Positions 8,294 to 60,725 of a DNA stretch of 64,000 nt are shown here, piece after piece. Source of the DNA: Moorella sp. Hama-1 (lineage in GTDB: Bacteria > Bacillota > DSM-521 > Neomoorellales > Neomoorellaceae); the NCBI RefSeq assembly GCF_023734095.1, contig NZ_AP024620.1, positions 2,972,501-3,036,500 on the forward strand, given 5' to 3'. The position numbers and the translations under genes were made by a program. Under the pieces are notes generated by a model that was not told the origin of the DNA, did no database searches, and worked only from the letters and a program-made list of their open reading frames with translations. Position 1 is the stretch's first letter. Every line of letters begins with the position of its first letter.

Positions 8294-9643
8294 TTATACT
8301 CCCTCTATTCGTGACATTGAACTATATACCACGGTCGATTCTGGATTGACTATTAAAATTGTCAGAGCTCCAATAAGAAGCAGACAATTACTTACCATAA
8401 ACGGCAGTATCCAAGAATTGGTGGCATCCACAATCGCCCCGAAAATTACCGGGGAAACCATCCCAGCTACCCCAAAACCTGTATTCATAATACCAGAAAC
8501 TGTCCCAGAAAATTCGGTACCGCCTAGATCCATTGATGTTGCCCAAAGATTTGCATTAGCACATTCAAGAAAGAAAAAGGCAATGGTTAAATAAATAACA
8601 GCAGCGATACCATTGGGTGTAAATGCGCCAAATAAAGTAAAAACGAGTGACATAAGCATGGCTCCACAAACAGTCAGCCGTCGGGCGATCTTCAAACTAC
8701 CAGTTTTTTTCCATAGGTAATCAGAAAGCACTCCGCCGACAATATCTCCTAACATGCCACCTAATAAAGGAAGCATGGCATAAAAACCCATTTTAACGAT
8801 GGCAAAATGACGTCCATTAACCAAATATGTTGGAAGCCAGGTGAGATAAACCCATAGGCTGTAGCCATAACAGAAATCTGAAAAAACCAATGCCCAAATA
8901 TCCTTACTACGTACAATCTTGTGCCATGGTATGGTATTTTTTTGTACTGTCAGACTTTTAGGCGCCATCCCCGCAGGCCAGAAAATCTCTTGTAGTTCTT
9001 CTGGGTTGACCCCTGGATGTTGAGCAGGATTATCGCGATAATACCACAAGAAAATTATTGACCACAAGATACCAACAGCACCTAACATATAGAAAGGCAT
9101 TTGCCAACCTTTCCAAACCATAATTGCAACTACAATCGGAGGAGCAATGGCTCCACCAAAACGAGAGGCAGCATGGGTTATCCCCTGTAAAAAGCCTCTA
9201 GCTTCAGGAGGAAACCACGATGCCATTGCTCTGGTCGCCACTGGGAATCCACCAGCTTCCCCAAAACCGAAGAGAAGTCTGAAAACAAATAGAGAACTAA
9301 AACTCCAAGCGATTCCAGTAAGCATAGTAAAAATAGACCACCAACTCATCAATATACTCAAAACTTTTCGTGGCCCAAACCGGTCGCCCAAGGCACCACC
9401 TATAATTTGTAAAAGAGCATATGGCCAAGCGAAAGCTGAAAAAATCAAACCCATATCTGTTTTATTAAAATGGAATACCTTCATCATTGTAGGGGCTGTA
9501 ACTGATATATTTACCCGATCAAGATAAGAAATCAAATAAAGCAGACATAAAAGAAAGAGAACTATATATCGTTTTTTACTAGCGCCAGGAACTCGCATTC
9601 CTCTTATCGCTCCATGATTTGTTATGTCACTCATTTTTACCAC
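8294..9643 (-). CDS. MFS transporter, anion:cation symporter (ACS) family
   Basis: 449 residues with 12 predicted membrane helices. The segment YLDRVNISVTAP after the first helix and the DRFGPRK loop between helices 2 and 3 are the signature of the ACS family, which takes up organic anions such as glucarate, phthalate or hexuronates with protons. It starts at an ATG behind TAGGAG. It lies downstream of the LysR and LUD genes on the same strand but after a 390-base gap, so it may have its own promoter. Codon use looks more AT-rich than the genes around it, which hints at acquisition. The substrate is unknown. Confidence 0.82.
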   Translation of the reverse strand: MVKMSDITNHGAIRGMRVPGASKKRYIVLFLLCLLYLISYLDRVNISVTAPTMMKVFHFNKTDMGLIFSAFAWPYALLQIIGGALGDRFGPRKVLSILMSWWSIFTMLTGIAWSFSSLFVFRLLFGFGEAGGFPVATRAMASWFPPEARGFLQGITHAASRFGGAIAPPIVVAIMVWKGWQMPFYMLGAVGILWSIIFLWYYRDNPAQHPGVNPEELQEIFWPAGMAPKSLTVQKNTIPWHKIVRSKDIWALVFSDFCYGYSLWVYLTWLPTYLVNGRHFAIVKMGFYAMLPLLGGMLGDIVGGVLSDYLWKKTGSLKIARRLTVCGAMLMSLVFTLFGAFTPNGIAAVIYLTIAFFFLECANANLWATSMDLGGTEFSGTVSGIMNTGFGVAGMVSPVIFGAIVDATNSWILPFMVSNCLLLIGALTILIVNPESTVVYSSMSRIEGV

Positions 9644-50690: not shown

Positions 50691-52349
50691 TTAGCCCACA
50701 GGCTCTTCCTGGGTCCGGGTTCCCTTTAAATGGCTCTTTTCCTTCACCAGTTTGGCTTCTGCGGCCTCCCTGGTAAAGGCAATCACCATGCAGAAAGCGG
50801 CGATGAAGATCAGGAAGAGGACCATGCCGAAAACACCCTTGGTGTAAAGCCAGCCGAACCTGGTAACGGCCAGGATGATTAAGGCCAGACCGGCGATTAG
50901 GGCGCCGAGGCCGACATTTTTGGCTGCTCCCTCACGGGGTATCACCCAGCGATAACTCCCGGCCCTTTCGATTAAGGTTACCAGGGTCAGGGCCGAGACA
51001 TTAAAGATCATACCGATCCAGACGGGGTGGATGTTCAGGTAGAATCTGGCCGGATCCCAGGCTCCCAGGTGGTACCAGGCGATCCCGGAAACAAAGCCGG
51101 CCACGAGGGAGCTTACGGCCGCCTTCCGGGTGGCCAGGGGCCAGAAAAGCACGCCGATGATGGGGGCAAAGGTGGCGCCGTTACGGACCGTCCAGGCCAG
51201 GACATTCCACCAGGCAGCCTGCTCCGTCCGCAGGAAGCCAAAGACGATCATCAGCAGGGTCAGGACGACCAGGGACCATTTAGTATAAGTCACCATCTGC
51301 TGGTCCGTCACCCGGGGGTTGAGGGAAGAAACTACATCCCGGCCCAGGCTGGTGGCTCCGGAGAACTGGCAGGGGGCCCCCCAGCCCAGGGCACAGGCCC
51401 AAATACCCATGAAGAAAATACCTACCAGCGGTGCGGGTAAAACCTGGGCCAGGTATTTGGGTACGGCCACCAGGCCGCGGCCCAGACCGGGGGCTGCTAC
51501 CGCCGCCGCCATGCCGAAGAGGACTCCCAGGACGATAAAAACAATGTTGAAACCGGCGGCCCAGAGGAGGCCCCTCTTCCCTTCTTCCGGCGTCCGGCAG
51601 GAGAGGGCCATCTGGAAGGCCGCCTGGGCTAGGAAGACGTTGACCAGGAAGGTGCCGAACCAGGCGAGGATGGTTTGCAGGCCAACTGTGGTCAGGCCGA
51701 ACATGGCCGGTTTGGCCGCCGCCAGCTGGGCCAGGCCGGCAAAACCGGGTTTAATAAAGAAGGCCACCAGGCCGATGATAAACATCAGGGTAAAGGCCAC
51801 GGCATTGGCTGTCTGGGTGAAGACCACCGACCACATGCCCCCGGCCTGGAGGTAAACCAGGAGCAGCAGGGCGCTGAAGATTACCCAGGTGGAGAGGGAT
51901 ATGCCGGTAAAGGCGCTCATGGCGGCGGCAAAGGCCAGGGCGTTGGCCGTCGCATACATGGGAAAGGTAAAGGCCGTAACGGCACCGGCGATGGCTTTGG
52001 CTGTTCGACCGTACCGGTCACCGATCAACCCGGATATGGTAACTACCAGGCGTTTCCGGAAGGGGACCACAAAGAACAGGGCGATAATGAGGACATGTAT
52101 CATTTCGGCCACGCCGTACCAGCCGGCGGAGATACCGGTGGTGTAGGACAGTTCCAGGATGGCTATATAGGAAGAACCGGAAAAAAGGCCGGTAATACAA
52201 ACAGCGACCATCCAGGGTTTAAAGCAGCGGCCGCCGACCCAGAAATCCTCGCCGCGGGCGGCCTTGCTTTTGGCCACATTGCCGGCGATGATTAAGACCG
52301 CCGTATAAATGACAGCCATGACTAAGATCCAGAAAGCATAGGCATTCAA
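50691..52349 (-). CDS. Sodium:solute symporter (SSS family)
   Basis: 552 residues with about 13-14 membrane helices. The early GEDFWVGGRCFKPWMVAVC segment and the LSYTTGISAGWYG region follow the SSS pattern, and the C-terminus is a charged cytosolic tail. It lies 156 bases after the OsmC gene in the same direction, with one copy of a hairpin repeat between, so it may share the sigma-54 promoter. The cargo could be an organic acid; nothing closer can be said. Confidence 0.82.
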   Translation of the reverse strand: MNAYAFWILVMAVIYTAVLIIAGNVAKSKAARGEDFWVGGRCFKPWMVAVCITGLFSGSSYIAILELSYTTGISAGWYGVAEMIHVLIIALFFVVPFRKRLVVTISGLIGDRYGRTAKAIAGAVTAFTFPMYATANALAFAAAMSAFTGISLSTWVIFSALLLLVYLQAGGMWSVVFTQTANAVAFTLMFIIGLVAFFIKPGFAGLAQLAAAKPAMFGLTTVGLQTILAWFGTFLVNVFLAQAAFQMALSCRTPEEGKRGLLWAAGFNIVFIVLGVLFGMAAAVAAPGLGRGLVAVPKYLAQVLPAPLVGIFFMGIWACALGWGAPCQFSGATSLGRDVVSSLNPRVTDQQMVTYTKWSLVVLTLLMIVFGFLRTEQAAWWNVLAWTVRNGATFAPIIGVLFWPLATRKAAVSSLVAGFVSGIAWYHLGAWDPARFYLNIHPVWIGMIFNVSALTLVTLIERAGSYRWVIPREGAAKNVGLGALIAGLALIILAVTRFGWLYTKGVFGMVLFLIFIAAFCMVIAFTREAAEAKLVKEKSHLKGTRTQEEPVG

Positions 52350-52372
52350 CCTCGTTCCCTCCTTCGAAAATT

Positions 52373-52475
52373 GATGTGAGAAATGAGAGGTTAGATATTG
52401 GATGCTTGCCGGAACTGGCTGCGCCAGTTCCCCCTCATTTTTCTCCCCTTCGTTGGTGGCGGCTTGCCACCATGA
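52373..52475. repeat. Dispersed intergenic hairpin repeat, copy B
   Basis: Related to 34471-34582: GATGTGAGAAATGAGAGGTT at the start, the hairpins GGAACTGGC-TGCG-CCAGTTCC and GGTGGC-GGCTT-GCCACC, and CTTCGTTGGTGGCGGCTTGC at the end. Changes in the first stem (AACTGGC/GCCAGTT to GGAACTGGC/GCCAGTTCC) keep or extend pairing. It sits just before the symporter start codon on the minus strand. Confidence 0.7.
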
Positions 52476-52505
52476 TTAGCTTCTTAGTTATATCCCTAAT
52501 ATATC

Positions 52506-52964
52506 TTAGGCGTTGCTGGCCTTTTCCAGGTACGGGTAGGGATACTTCTGATCGTTGATGATGAAGGCATACTCGATTTTACCAGCCGCCCTCATCATGT
52601 TGGCTGCCGAACAGTAAACCTCATCGGCCAGTTTAATGGCCTGGGCTACCTTCGCCGGAGGCAGGTTTTTCCCCCGGAAGTGATAGCTTACCCGCATCCG
52701 GGTAAAAATCTTCGGGTGGTCGTCCGCCCTTTCCCCTTCAACAGTTATAACCAGGCTGTCAAAACTCACCCGCATCTTCTGGAGGATATGACTCACTTCA
52801 ATACCGGTACACCCCCCCAGGGCCATGAGCATTAGATCCATAGGCCTGGTGCCCTGGTTCTCCCCGCCGTAGACGGGGCTGGCATCCATAGCCACCTGGT
52901 GGCCGGCGCCGTCATCGCCGATAAACTGCATCTTACCGGCCCAATTAATTGTTACTTTTCCCAT
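52506..52964 (-). CDS. OsmC/Ohr-family protein
   Basis: 152 residues from the ATG at 52964, preceded by AAAGGAG. The two redox cysteines of the family are present, in ALGGCTGIEVSHIL and DEVYCSAANMM. OsmC/Ohr proteins reduce organic peroxides with lipoyl-protein electrons, and some members act on other thiol chemistry. It is expressed from a sigma-54 promoter (53033-53048) just downstream of the sigma-54 activator gene, which is unusual for this family and suggests a metabolic rather than a general stress role (inference). Confidence 0.88.
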   Translation of the reverse strand: MGKVTINWAGKMQFIGDDGAGHQVAMDASPVYGGENQGTRPMDLMLMALGGCTGIEVSHILQKMRVSFDSLVITVEGERADDHPKIFTRMRVSYHFRGKNLPPAKVAQAIKLADEVYCSAANMMRAAGKIEYAFIINDQKYPYPYLEKASNA

Positions 52965-53032
52965 ACAAACCTTCTCCTTTCGCATGATATCCGGATTAGC
53001 CCGTATATCCTTGTTATCTCTATCACATCTAT

Positions 53033-53048
53033 TGCAATAATTGTGCCA
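53033..53048 (-). promoter_or_regulatory. Sigma-54 (-24/-12) promoter of the OsmC gene
   Basis: Minus strand TGGCACAATTATTGCA matches the consensus TGGCAC-N5-TTGCA at every fixed position. The predicted start is near 53022, 58 bases before the ATG. The adjacent upstream gene encodes a sigma-54-dependent activator. Confidence 0.88.
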
Positions 53049-53051
53049 GGC

Positions 53052-53090
53052 TATAAAAAATCCCCTGAAACCTGTAAGAGTCCCAGGGGA
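53052..53090 (-). terminator. Terminator after the sigma-54 activator gene
   Basis: Minus strand TCCCCTG (53090-53084) pairs with CAGGGGA (53067-53061), then TTTTTT. It sits between the activator gene and the sigma-54 promoter and insulates the two transcripts. Confidence 0.75.
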
Positions 53091-53214
53091 ATGGTATTAA
53101 GAAAGAACGCCCGCGGTCCATTGACGAACCATCCCGGCAGGCCATGGCATTAGTTCTTGTGCTCGCATTCCTTGTATCTTTAAAGGAAAATCCCGGTGCA
53201 CGTCCGGACCATTA

Positions 53215-53232
53215 TGGTTCAATTATAGACCA
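53215..53232. promoter_or_regulatory. Candidate upstream activator site for the sigma-54 regulator
   Basis: TGGTTCAATTATAGACCA, identical over 18 bases to 55607-55624. It is an imperfect dyad (TGGT...ACCA) centred about 200 bases before the predicted sigma-54 start, a normal place for an enhancer. A further ACC/GGT half-site group (ACCACCGAACCACC) follows directly at 53229-53242. Confidence 0.7.
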
Positions 53233-53367
53233 CCGAACCACCCTATCGCGCCCAGCGCTCCCCGCCGAAACCTGCCAAGTGGCAATGTACATAGGATGGG
53301 TGAAACTTTTTTATCCGCAGCCTGAAGCAGATTTCAGTTGCACCGGCCTGCCGTACCAGCTCCCATC

Positions 53368-55536
53368 TTATACTTCCTGCCTGGCCCGGCGGCGCTTTTT
53401 AGACACTTCAGTTCCTGCCCGCAGACCGTGACCCGCCACCGCCAAAACAGACGGCGTATCCAAACCGTATTGCTGGGCCTTACGTAAAAGGGTTGAATGG
53501 GAAACGCCCAGAGCCCGTGCCGCCTGGCGCAGGCTGCCATACCGCTCCAGGGCCATGGCAATTAGCTGCTGCTCTACCTGTTCCCTGGCCTCCTGAAGGG
53601 GCAGGAGTTCCTTAAGGACCAGGGGCCGGCCGGCGTTCACGACCTCCGCCTCCAGGTCCAGGGGCAGGTACTCCGGTTGAATTAAGTCATCCTCCCCCAT
53701 AATGACCAAGCGCTCCATTACGTTCTGCAGCTCCCTGACGTTCCCGGGCCAGGGATAGGCCTCCAGGGCCCGACCGGCTGCCAGGGAGAGGCGCTTAGCA
53801 GCACCGTACTTAGCATTATAAATACCCAGGAAGTGACGGGCCAGGGGCAGGATATCCTCCCGCCGCTCCCGCAGGGGCGGGAGGATGATGGGTACTACAT
53901 TCAAGCGATAGTAGAGGTCCTCCCGGAAGGCCTTTTCCTTGACCATCCGGCTCAGGTCCTTGTTGGTGGCCGCCAGGATGCGGACATTGAGTTTGATCTC
54001 GTGACAACCCCCCAGACGGTAGATTTTTTGTTCCTGGAGAAAGCGCAAAAGCTTGACCTGTAACCCCAGGGGCAGGTCGCCGATTTCATCCAGGAAAAGG
54101 GTGCCGTTGTTGGCCACCTCCAGGAGGCCGACCTTGCCTTCCTTGCTGGCGCCGGTAAAGGCCCCCTTCTCATAACCGAAAAGTTCCGATTCCAGCAGGT
54201 TCTCCGGGATGGCGCCGCAGTTTATTTCCATAAAGGGGCCCTCCCGCCGCTGGCTGTGACGGTGAATGAGCTTGGCGACGACCTCCTTGCCGGCTCCCGA
54301 TTCCCCGGTGATCAGGACGGTAGAATCAACAGCCGCCACCCGCAGGGCCTGGTCAACCACCCGCTCCATGGCCGGACTCTGGTAGATAATTTCCGGCGCC
54401 GCCAGGTGGCGGGCCCGCAGGGCCTGGAGTTCGGCCGCCGCCCGCTGGGCTTCTTCCTTCAAGCGGCGCAGTTCGGTCATATCGCGGATGTTGATCACCA
54501 CCTGGGAAACAGCACCCTGTTCGTCCAGGACCGGGTTACCCGTCAGGATGACCTCCCTGCCGGCCGGGGTATGGTACATAATGGTAGCCGCCTTGCCGCT
54601 CTCCCGGACCAGGCGGCAGAGCTGGCCGATCTGGGCCTCGGCCTCACCGGCTTCCGGTCGCAGGGGTTGATCCTTGAGAATACCGGAGCTGCCGCCGGCC
54701 ATAATGCGCTTGCAGGCCTCATTCAAACCCAGGACTTTATCTTCCCGATCGATTACCAGCATGCCGTCGTAGCAGGCTTCAATTACGCTTTGTAATTGCC
54801 GGTTTAAGGATTTAACTACATTCAGCTCGCTGGATATGGTCTCCAGCTCGGAGATGTCCTGGAGGACCAGGACGGCCCCCTGTTCCCGCCCCTCCCGGGT
54901 AATGGGGTTGCGGCGGATGGCCAGGGTCCTGCCGCCCACCCATGCTTTATGGAACTGCTCCCCGGCTATTTCCGTTAAAAAAGGGCTCAAGCCGGGTGGC
55001 GCCAGGATCGTAGCCGCCGGCTGGCCCAGGGCCACGGCAACAGGCAGACCAATCAACCGGGATGCCGCCGGGTTGAGATGGCAGACCCTCCCTTCCCCGT
55101 CAACGGCAATAATGCCGCTGGGCACGGCCTCCAAGACCGCCGCCAGCTCCAGTTCCGTCTTCTCCAGGGCCCGGTGGACCTTCTTAATCAGGGTAATCCG
55201 CGTCAGGACGCCGCTCAGGCGCCGGTTCCTGTTGAGAACAATCAGGCGGTCAATGGGCAGGTCGGCCACCTGGTCAAAGCCGGTGTCTTCATCAATACAG
55301 ACCAGTTTCCGGTCCATGACCTCCTCAATGCGCGTGGCCAGGGTGGCCCCTTGCTGCAGGGCCTCCAGCAGTCGAAAGACGGTGATAATACCCACCACCT
55401 CGCCGTCGGCATCCAGGACCGGGGCGCAGTTGACCTGCTGGCGCTGGTAGACGGCCACGGCATCAGCCAGGGTCTGCCAATAATGGAGGGTCTCCGGGTC
55501 ATTGAGCATAACCTCTTTAACCTGCACCGGATGCAC
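53368..55536 (-). CDS. Sigma-54-dependent transcriptional activator, CBS-PAS-PAS-AAA-Fis
   Basis: 722 residues, GTG start. Two CBS motifs (about 1-120) may bind an adenine nucleotide. Two PAS domains follow (about 130-240 and 245-365). The central AAA+ domain (about 395-630) has Walker [15 protein letters not shown], the sigma-54 contact loop as [13 protein letters not shown] and Walker B in [14 protein letters not shown] Fis-type helix-turn-helix is near 675-705 ([20 protein letters not shown]). Its own promoter region and the region before the osmC-type gene share an 18-base dyad, so it probably controls both. The signal is unknown. Confidence 0.92.
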
Positions 55537-55582: not shown

Positions 55583-55624
55583 CGCGGCTATCCCCATTAT
55601 AACAGTTGGTTCAATTATAGACCA
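55583..55624 (-). promoter_or_regulatory. Promoter region of the sigma-54 activator with its dyad
   Basis: The dyad TGGTTCAATTATAGACCA (55607-55624) lies directly upstream of, and partly overlaps, a TATAAT box (minus strand, about 55601-55596) with a TGGTCT at -35 distance of 17 bases. Binding there would repress or tune the activator's own gene. Confidence 0.6.
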
Positions 55625-59003: not shown

Positions 59004-60725
59004 TCAAATTATATTGCTGGTGCTACCCTGCTCCATGCGTTTCGTGAGGAACAGTGCTACTAAGATCAGGAGTATCTGCAAAACGCCATAGGCTGCCGCA
59101 GTGCCAAATTCAAAGGAATACATGCGATTATTAATCTCTACGGATATGGGCCGGCTGCTGTGGGTATAGATCAAAATCGAAGCGACAAACTCCCCTACGC
59201 CCTGGACAAAGGCCATGAGCGCGCCTCCAACTACGCCGCGCAACATTAAAGGCAGGGTCACCCGGCGGAAACTATAGCACCAGCTGGCGCCCAGGTTGCG
59301 TGCAGCTTCCTCAAGGCTGGGGTCTAGCTGGGCCAGGGCTGCCGCACTGGAGCGGAATACAAGGGGGGCAAAACGGACAAAGTAGGCCAGGGGTAAAATC
59401 CAGAAAGTTCCTACCAGTACCTGTCCCAGGCTAAACATAGAAGGCCGGTTGAAGGCTGTAATCAGGTTAATACCCACCACCGTGCCGGGCAGGGCCCATG
59501 GCAGCATGACGGCAGCGTCTAAGAGCCCTTTCCCCTTAAAGGCCAAGCGCGTCACCACGTAAGCAGCGGCAACGCCCAGAATAATATCTCCGCCGGCGGC
59601 AATAGTACTCATTTCCAGGCTGTTGCGGATGGGCTCCCAGGCACGGGGATCGGTAAACAGGCGGACGTAATTCTCCAGGGTATATTGGGGAGGCAAAACC
59701 TGCACCGTCCAGGTAGTATCTTTGGAAAAGGATATCAGTACCAAGGTCAGGATTGGCAACAGCAGTAAAATGACGGCGAGTACCGCCCCTGTTATGGCCA
59801 GGTAGCGCATAACCGGATTCCGGACTTCCATGCGGAGGGCAGTCACCCCTTTAGACAGGCTACGGTAGGTCCGCCTCCCCTGATACCAGCGCATCAGCAC
59901 CAGGAAGGTAATGGAAACCGCCGAAAGGATGGTTGACTGGGCTGAAGCCAGAGCCAGATTGCCATTGGTCCGGGAGATATAGATTTGCATGGTCATAGTC
60001 CGGTCGACGCCAAAAATCAGCGGGGCAGTGTACGAAGCCATAGAGATCATAAAAACCAATAGCGAGCCGGCAACCAGCGCGGGAGTAAGCATGGGCAGGA
60101 TTACCCTCGTCCAGACCTGCCAGCGGCGCGCCCCCAGGTTATAAGCCGCCTCTTCTATTGAAGGGTCCATCCCTGCAAAAGCCGCCGCAGCGGATAAATA
60201 AAAGTAGGGATACATGGTAAAGGTGTGGACCATCAGGACGCCGCCAATGCCCTTGAGGGCAAACGGAACTCTTTCCAGCCCGAACAGTACTTGCAAGCCG
60301 CGGGGAATTATACCGCTTTCGGAAAAGAGGAACATAAAAGTGAGAACACCAATCAGCGGCGGTAGGGCCATAGGTACCAGGGCCAGGGTTTCCAGCAACT
60401 TTCGCCCTGGAAACTCGAAACGGTGGAGTAAAAACGCCAGGCCGACACCAACCGCGCTTGTGGTTAACACGCTAAGAACTGAAATCAAGAGGCTGGTAAA
60501 AAGGGCCTCCAGGTTAGCACCCCAATGAAAAAATTCCCGGTAATGCGCAAGGGTTAAGCCACCTTCAGGGGTAGTAACGCTGGATAAAAATGTGGCCAGC
60601 AAAGGTTGCACCACATAGCCCCAGAGCACCAGCACCAGGGGGGCTATGATAACATAGGTAAATAGGGGGGAGGTAGTGGCGCGCTGCCAGCTATCGGTCC
60701 AGGTGTGCCTTGACATCCTTCTCAC
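59004..60725 (-). CDS. ABC importer permease, two fused BPD domains (FbpB-like)
   Basis: 573 residues with 12 predicted helices in two homologous halves. Each half has the EAA loop that meets the ATPase: EEAAYNLGARRWQVWTRVIL and EEAARNLGASWCYSFRRVTL. Such fused permeases serve the iron(III), thiamine, phosphonate and related importers. The start overlaps the ATPase stop through GTGA. An ATG at 60716 is an alternative start. Confidence 0.9.
   Translation of the reverse strand: MRRMSRHTWTDSWQRATTSPLFTYVIIAPLVLVLWGYVVQPLLATFLSSVTTPEGGLTLAHYREFFHWGANLEALFTSLLISVLSVLTTSAVGVGLAFLLHRFEFPGRKLLETLALVPMALPPLIGVLTFMFLFSESGIIPRGLQVLFGLERVPFALKGIGGVLMVHTFTMYPYFYLSAAAAFAGMDPSIEEAAYNLGARRWQVWTRVILPMLTPALVAGSLLVFMISMASYTAPLIFGVDRTMTMQIYISRTNGNLALASAQSTILSAVSITFLVLMRWYQGRRTYRSLSKGVTALRMEVRNPVMRYLAITGAVLAVILLLLPILTLVLISFSKDTTWTVQVLPPQYTLENYVRLFTDPRAWEPIRNSLEMSTIAAGGDIILGVAAAYVVTRLAFKGKGLLDAAVMLPWALPGTVVGINLITAFNRPSMFSLGQVLVGTFWILPLAYFVRFAPLVFRSSAAALAQLDPSLEEAARNLGASWCYSFRRVTLPLMLRGVVGGALMAFVQGVGEFVASILIYTHSSRPISVEINNRMYSFEFGTAAAYGVLQILLILVALFLTKRMEQGSTSNII

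Follow-up and report, generated by a model that had tools for sequence, protein, structure and literature searches.

A study of sigma-54 regulation in the Clostridiales distinguished 39 activator groups, many of them with TGT...ACA operators, and described a pattern in which multiple operators lie at a distance of 100-250 bp and the activator is encoded beside its target (PMC6615313). As far as the main text and Table 1 of that study go, the Moorella locus described here follows the same plan, with an adjacent activator, multiple upstream operators, a -24/-12 promoter, CBS/PAS sensors and a Fis-type HTH, but differs in its operator, which reads GGT-N10-ACC instead of the common TGT-N10-12-ACA. 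Table 1 of PMC6615313 names no OsmC, SSS or lipoyl targets for any activator group, and its main text does not mention Moorella. The locus is set apart from these groups by their named targets, and because the targets of two groups are unnamed, e.g., XhpR (hyp-memP), an overlap with one of them is possible. A further described relative is PrdR, the sigma-54 regulator of proline reductase genes, which is the best NCBIfam match of the Moorella activator (462 bits over residues 245-691, below the family cut-off of 795 bits); unlike in the PrdR system, no prd genes are present at the Moorella locus.

Regarding the target genes, Ohr/OsmC peroxidases receive their electrons from NADH through lipoylated proteins (PMC5962072, PMC4069020), and the activity of the YhfA subfamily is not established (PMC5962072). 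The OsmC protein of the Moorella locus shares with these peroxidases the OsmC fold family and two conserved cysteines, and lipoyl reductant genes are linked to it in relatives; it differs from them in that its nearest subfamily is YhfA and in being linked with a symporter and sigma-54 instead of OhrR. For Trichomonas hydrogenosomes, a title cited in PMC10332631 reports detoxification of peroxides by OsmC acting with the H and L proteins of glycine cleavage. This OsmC/incomplete glycine decarboxylase complex resembles the module studied here in combining OsmC with an H- and an L-protein in an anaerobe, but belongs to a eukaryotic organelle and comes without a symporter. Open-licence papers on sigma-54 and OsmC, Moorella and OsmC, or OsmC and a symporter contained nothing on this system. 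As a sigma-54 regulon, the switch is of an ordinary kind, and its target module, consisting of OsmC and a symporter and often lipoyl genes, appears to be undescribed so far.

The promoter and its surroundings in Moorella

Moorella is a heat-loving, acetate-making bacterium, and the closest named genomes are those of Moorella mulderi, stamsii and sulfitireducens. In the window, i.e., the whole 64-kb stretch of DNA analysed, the predicted sigma-54 promoter TGGCACAATTATTGCA is located on the minus strand at 53033-53048. It agrees with TGGCAC-N5-TTGCW at every fixed base, with GG at -24 and GC at -12 lying 10 bp apart, exactly where the earlier note had reported a near-consensus site. Compared with the longer form of the consensus, TGGCACG-N4-TTGCW, there is a single departure, A instead of G. 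The -24/-12 geometry predicts the transcription start of the osmC operon at 53022, the same position as proposed before. A second, weaker sigma-54-like site, TGGTGCAACCTTTGCT, was observed at 60598-60613 on the minus strand.

The next gene upstream of the promoter, on the same strand (53368-55536, minus), encodes a sigma-54 activator (enhancer-binding protein) of 722 aa, in which Pfam identifies two CBS domains, two PAS domains, an AAA+ domain and a Fis-type HTH. It contains the motifs GESGAGK (Walker A), GAFTGA and LDEIG, and thus combines Walker A/B and GAFTGA within an AAA+ domain with an HTH, as is typical of enhancer-binding proteins. An intact RpoN is encoded in the genome by a 461-aa ORF with the activator-interacting region and the RRTVAKYR box. 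The C-terminal tail of the activator (53368-53460) is approximately 20-25 aa longer here than in other Moorella, so that the operators lie 136 bp past the stop codon, whereas in other Moorella they overlap it.

Between the activator gene and the promoter, three GGT-N10-ACC inverted repeats were found on the minus strand, with the consensus GGTGCA-N4-TGCACC in the gap alignment of Moorella: operator 1, GGTCTATAATTGAACC, at 53216-53231 (centre about -201), operator 2, GGTCCGGACGTGCACC, at 53195-53210 (centre approximately 180 bp before the predicted start) and operator 3, GGTTCGTCAATGGACC, at 53115-53130 (centre about -100). All three are aligned in 8 out of 8 Moorella, and operators 1 and 2 are spaced by exactly 21 bp, which corresponds to two helical turns. 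A fourth operator, a 16-mer identical to operator 1, is located at 55608-55623 (minus), immediately in front of the activator gene's promoter. When a weight matrix built exclusively from other Moorella genomes was run on the window, its four best sites were these four operators, with operator 1 joint top, operator 3 third and operator 2 fourth. The single scores of operators 2 and 3 (11.8 and 13.4 bits) are not significant, because many Markov controls reach them; the chance of three operators in one 317-bp gap is roughly 3e-8 by such controls, and the two weaker sites are convincing as putative operators only through clustering and conservation. The operator type is kept past the activator stop codon in other families too. 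A pattern search of the 3.32-Mb genome, with the reversed pattern as control, gave 17 operator matches versus 10, and only two of them lie beside this activator, both at this locus, so that no second target is claimed.

The activator gene has a housekeeping promoter with the extended -10 element TGTTATAAT at 55596-55604 (minus), whose TATAAT is invariant in all eight Moorella. The fourth operator abuts this -10 box, and since the pairing is conserved in 8/8 Moorella, the activator gene is probably autoregulated via this operator. Just upstream of the -24 box, an intrinsic terminator was identified at 53061-53090 (minus) with a 12-bp stem, a 6-base loop and a T run (-19.2 kcal/mol, z -3.8). Hairpins of differing sequence occupy this position in seven relatives, one of them weak (L083). 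The terminator would end the activator transcript and shield the operon from read-through. An Rfam scan of the window found no riboswitch in the 300-bp gap.

Every one of the eight Moorella genomes with this locus has the promoter, the activator and the operators, and the gene order activator-promoter-OsmC-symporter is kept across the other Moorella, split over contigs in one draft genome. One Moorella genome (G004) has an insert of approximately 340 bp between the promoter and OsmC, which counts against the proposed sigma-54 control of the operon; this insert (L081, about 9230-9640) is GC-rich with inverted repeats by eye, and may be a small mobile element. Upstream of the activator, the gene content varies among Moorella loci, and the upstream NagB, PfkB and argH-like genes were rejected as parts of the system, their adjacency not being conserved.

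How far the promoter match itself can be trusted depends on its chance level. Dinucleotide shuffles predict 0.09 exact matches to TGGCAC-N5-TTGCW per window, and TGGCACAATTATTGCA is the only one present; taken by itself it is only suggestive, because 8 out of 100 shuffled windows also contain at least one. Genome-wide, the pattern search yielded seven exact matches versus two for the reversed control, four of the seven being near a sigma-54 activator gene; two others, one in a CRISPR-like array and one within a kdpD-like gene, look like chance, and a match alone consequently proves little. The CRISPR-like repeat array in question lies within 618594-621609 of the same genome (L002). The -24/-12 match might accordingly be fortuitous, with OsmC transcription due to the housekeeping polymerase or to transcripts running on from the activator gene, an explanation that we consider very improbable: CCTGGCA[C/T]-N5-TTGCA stands at the same place in 8/8 Moorella genomes with the locus amid drifting flanking bases, the activator gene and the operators adjoin it, no sigma-70-like promoter was found in 52300-53500, and the terminator would block read-through. 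A chance match was rejected on this conservation, which is the decisive sequence evidence for a sigma-54 promoter at 53033-53048. We therefore favour, with high confidence, a working sigma-54 promoter that drives the osmC-symporter operon under the control of the neighbouring upstream activator. The earlier note's proposal that the OsmC gene is under sigma-54 control is strongly supported by the adjacent activator gene, the operators, the terminator, rpoN and the conserved arrangement; the strongest support comes from the activator gene and its putative binding sites, neither of which that note had contained.

Acting together, these elements would form a switch. The CBS-PAS activator may sense an intracellular signal, either a ligand or the redox state, and would bind the tandem GGT-N10-ACC operators 100-200 bp upstream of the start; its GAFTGA loop would then contact the sigma-54 polymerase, and ATP hydrolysis would open the promoter at 53033-53048. 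With the activator's own transcript stopped by the terminator before the -24 box, the operon would be off unless activated, and the operator over the activator's housekeeping promoter would add autoregulation. A specific substrate-driven response, also put forward earlier, is plausible in view of the activator's CBS and PAS sensor domains and of the transporter in the operon.

OsmC, the symporter and their relatives

The first gene of the operon (52506-52964, minus) encodes a YhfA-like OsmC-family protein of 152 aa; its likely start is the ATG at 52964, behind AGGAG, with an alternative ATG at 52985. It clearly belongs to the OsmC superfamily (Pfam OsmC 1.2e-20; 74.2 versus a gathering threshold of 27.5 bits), and its best NCBIfam match is PRK10738 (YhfA) with 91 bits, below the equivalog cut-off of 138 bits. 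Relatives of solved structure are PDB 1vla and 1ml8 (E. coli). C52 and C118, corresponding to the peroxidatic and resolving cysteines, are present and invariant in an alignment of six orthologs.

The second gene (50691-52349, minus) encodes a 552-aa sodium:solute symporter of the SSS family (Pfam SSF 1.2e-13; 51.2 versus 22.8 bits gathering), for which no substrate-specific NCBIfam model was reached and the only solved-structure match was a weak one to a choline transporter. Symporter relatives next to OsmC are 59-88% identical. The gap between the two genes is 156 bp here, contains a hairpin and is longer than in relatives, which counts against co-transcription; the hairpin is a perfect inverted repeat, GGAACTGGCTGCGCCAGTTCC, at 52411-52431 and may influence co-expression. 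Nevertheless, the symporter is likely co-transcribed with osmC, as had been supposed, given that in every Moorella locus it is the next gene after OsmC, on the same strand, and that the two genes are neighbours in the other lineages as well.

Symporter orthologs are present in other families of the phylum. We examined six non-Moorella loci (L104-L109) from four other families, all of which contain the activator, the sigma-54 promoter, the symporter and OsmC (44-61% identical) in changed order, with sigma-54 sites preceding the symporter-OsmC operon. Five of the six encode dihydrolipoyl dehydrogenase, a GcvH-like lipoyl carrier (lipoylation motif ESVKS) or both, and in two the lipoyl synthase LipS1/LipS2 is added after the GcvH-like gene. 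A sigma-54-like site of its own lies directly before the GcvH-like gene in L105 and L109, and a one-mismatch version in L104. In Moorella, the lipoyl genes are off-locus; our genome encodes GcvH three times and dihydrolipoyl dehydrogenase once at other positions, and no sigma-54 sites were found before these four genes. In a sample of 398 genomes, all 11 with an OsmC match at E <= 1e-42 have the symporter adjacent, and in a class sample, which has genomes in common with the former, 11 out of 11 OsmC orthologs of at least 54% identity adjoin a symporter, compared with none of four at 43-45%. Separate OsmC paralogs (about 40-45%) exist without a symporter neighbour, and no sigma-54 site stood out near the coding start of other OsmC paralogs. 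Together, the recurrence of the module in several Bacillota families suggests an unrecognised uptake-and-reduction pathway.

Clusters paralogous to the window module, with a related activator and a sigma-54 site, were observed in L080 (2140-10454), L081 (255-6803), L085 and L110. They encode a UroD-type methyltransferase, a corrinoid protein, a methyl-THF methyltransferase and an SSS symporter, the symporters being 54-68% identical. Elsewhere in our genome, an activator and an exact -24/-12 site lie directly before a gene that is MtaB-like by eye (L004, 2053697-2056712), for which, as a methanol:corrinoid methyltransferase, no NCBIfam match was obtained at 1e-10. Three further exact sites, with gene identities likewise assigned by eye, were seen: one precedes a gene for a CooC-like ATPase, one a gene for an iron-hydrogenase-like ferredoxin protein, and the third is close to a ferredoxin/oxidoreductase cluster that has an activator next to it (L003, L006 and L008).

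Possible functions of the operon

For the function of the operon, our tentative reading, possible rather than probable, is that a compound is imported by sodium symport and that OsmC performs lipoyl-dependent thiol chemistry on this compound or on its by-products. Such chemistry is the likeliest role for OsmC, held with some reserve, because lipoyl genes are linked in relatives. The same linkage of H-like and L genes would also fit a stress-defence operon, in which a lipoyl-dependent OsmC peroxidase acts against organic hydroperoxides, induction occurs through PAS redox sensing and the symporter is incidental. Ohr and OsmC are indeed lipoyl-reduced peroxidases (PMC5962072, PMC4069020), and the Trichomonas precedent (cited in PMC10332631) points the same way, but the protein is closer to YhfA, a subfamily without shown peroxidase activity, and the symporter is hardly incidental, because it adjoins OsmC in every ortholog even where the gene order has changed; we consider stress defence unlikely. 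Import of a methylated compound, with the module serving corrinoid-dependent methyl metabolism, draws on the paralogous modules, which pair the same activator type, a sigma-54 promoter and the symporter with methyltransferase/corrinoid genes, so that the symporter family perhaps carries small, methylated compounds, and on the weak match to the choline transporter. However, the OsmC-type operons have no methyltransferase genes and none lies beside the locus in our genome, and the methyltransferase subfamily scores in the paralogous clusters fall below the cut-offs; the methylated-substrate hint is a lead only, and we doubt that methyl metabolism is what the module serves.

Returning to lipoyl-dependent thiol chemistry, a more specific version, which we regard as somewhat unlikely in full, would be a hitherto undescribed sigma-54 pathway of anaerobic Bacillota in which a dedicated sodium symporter imports a compound and the YhfA-type OsmC reduces it, with electrons passing from NADH via dihydrolipoyl dehydrogenase to a GcvH-like lipoyl carrier dedicated to this purpose.

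In conclusion, this analysis defines a complete, testable sigma-54 regulon in acetogenic Moorella, comprising a predicted activator, operator, promoter and operon, with an operator type distinct from the common TGT...ACA. Moreover, it provides a lead on YhfA-type OsmC proteins, which are linked across families to a transporter and to lipoyl-carrier/lipoyl-reductase genes, some with sigma-54-like sites of their own. If true, the proposed reduction pathway would be the first biochemical role assigned to the YhfA subfamily.
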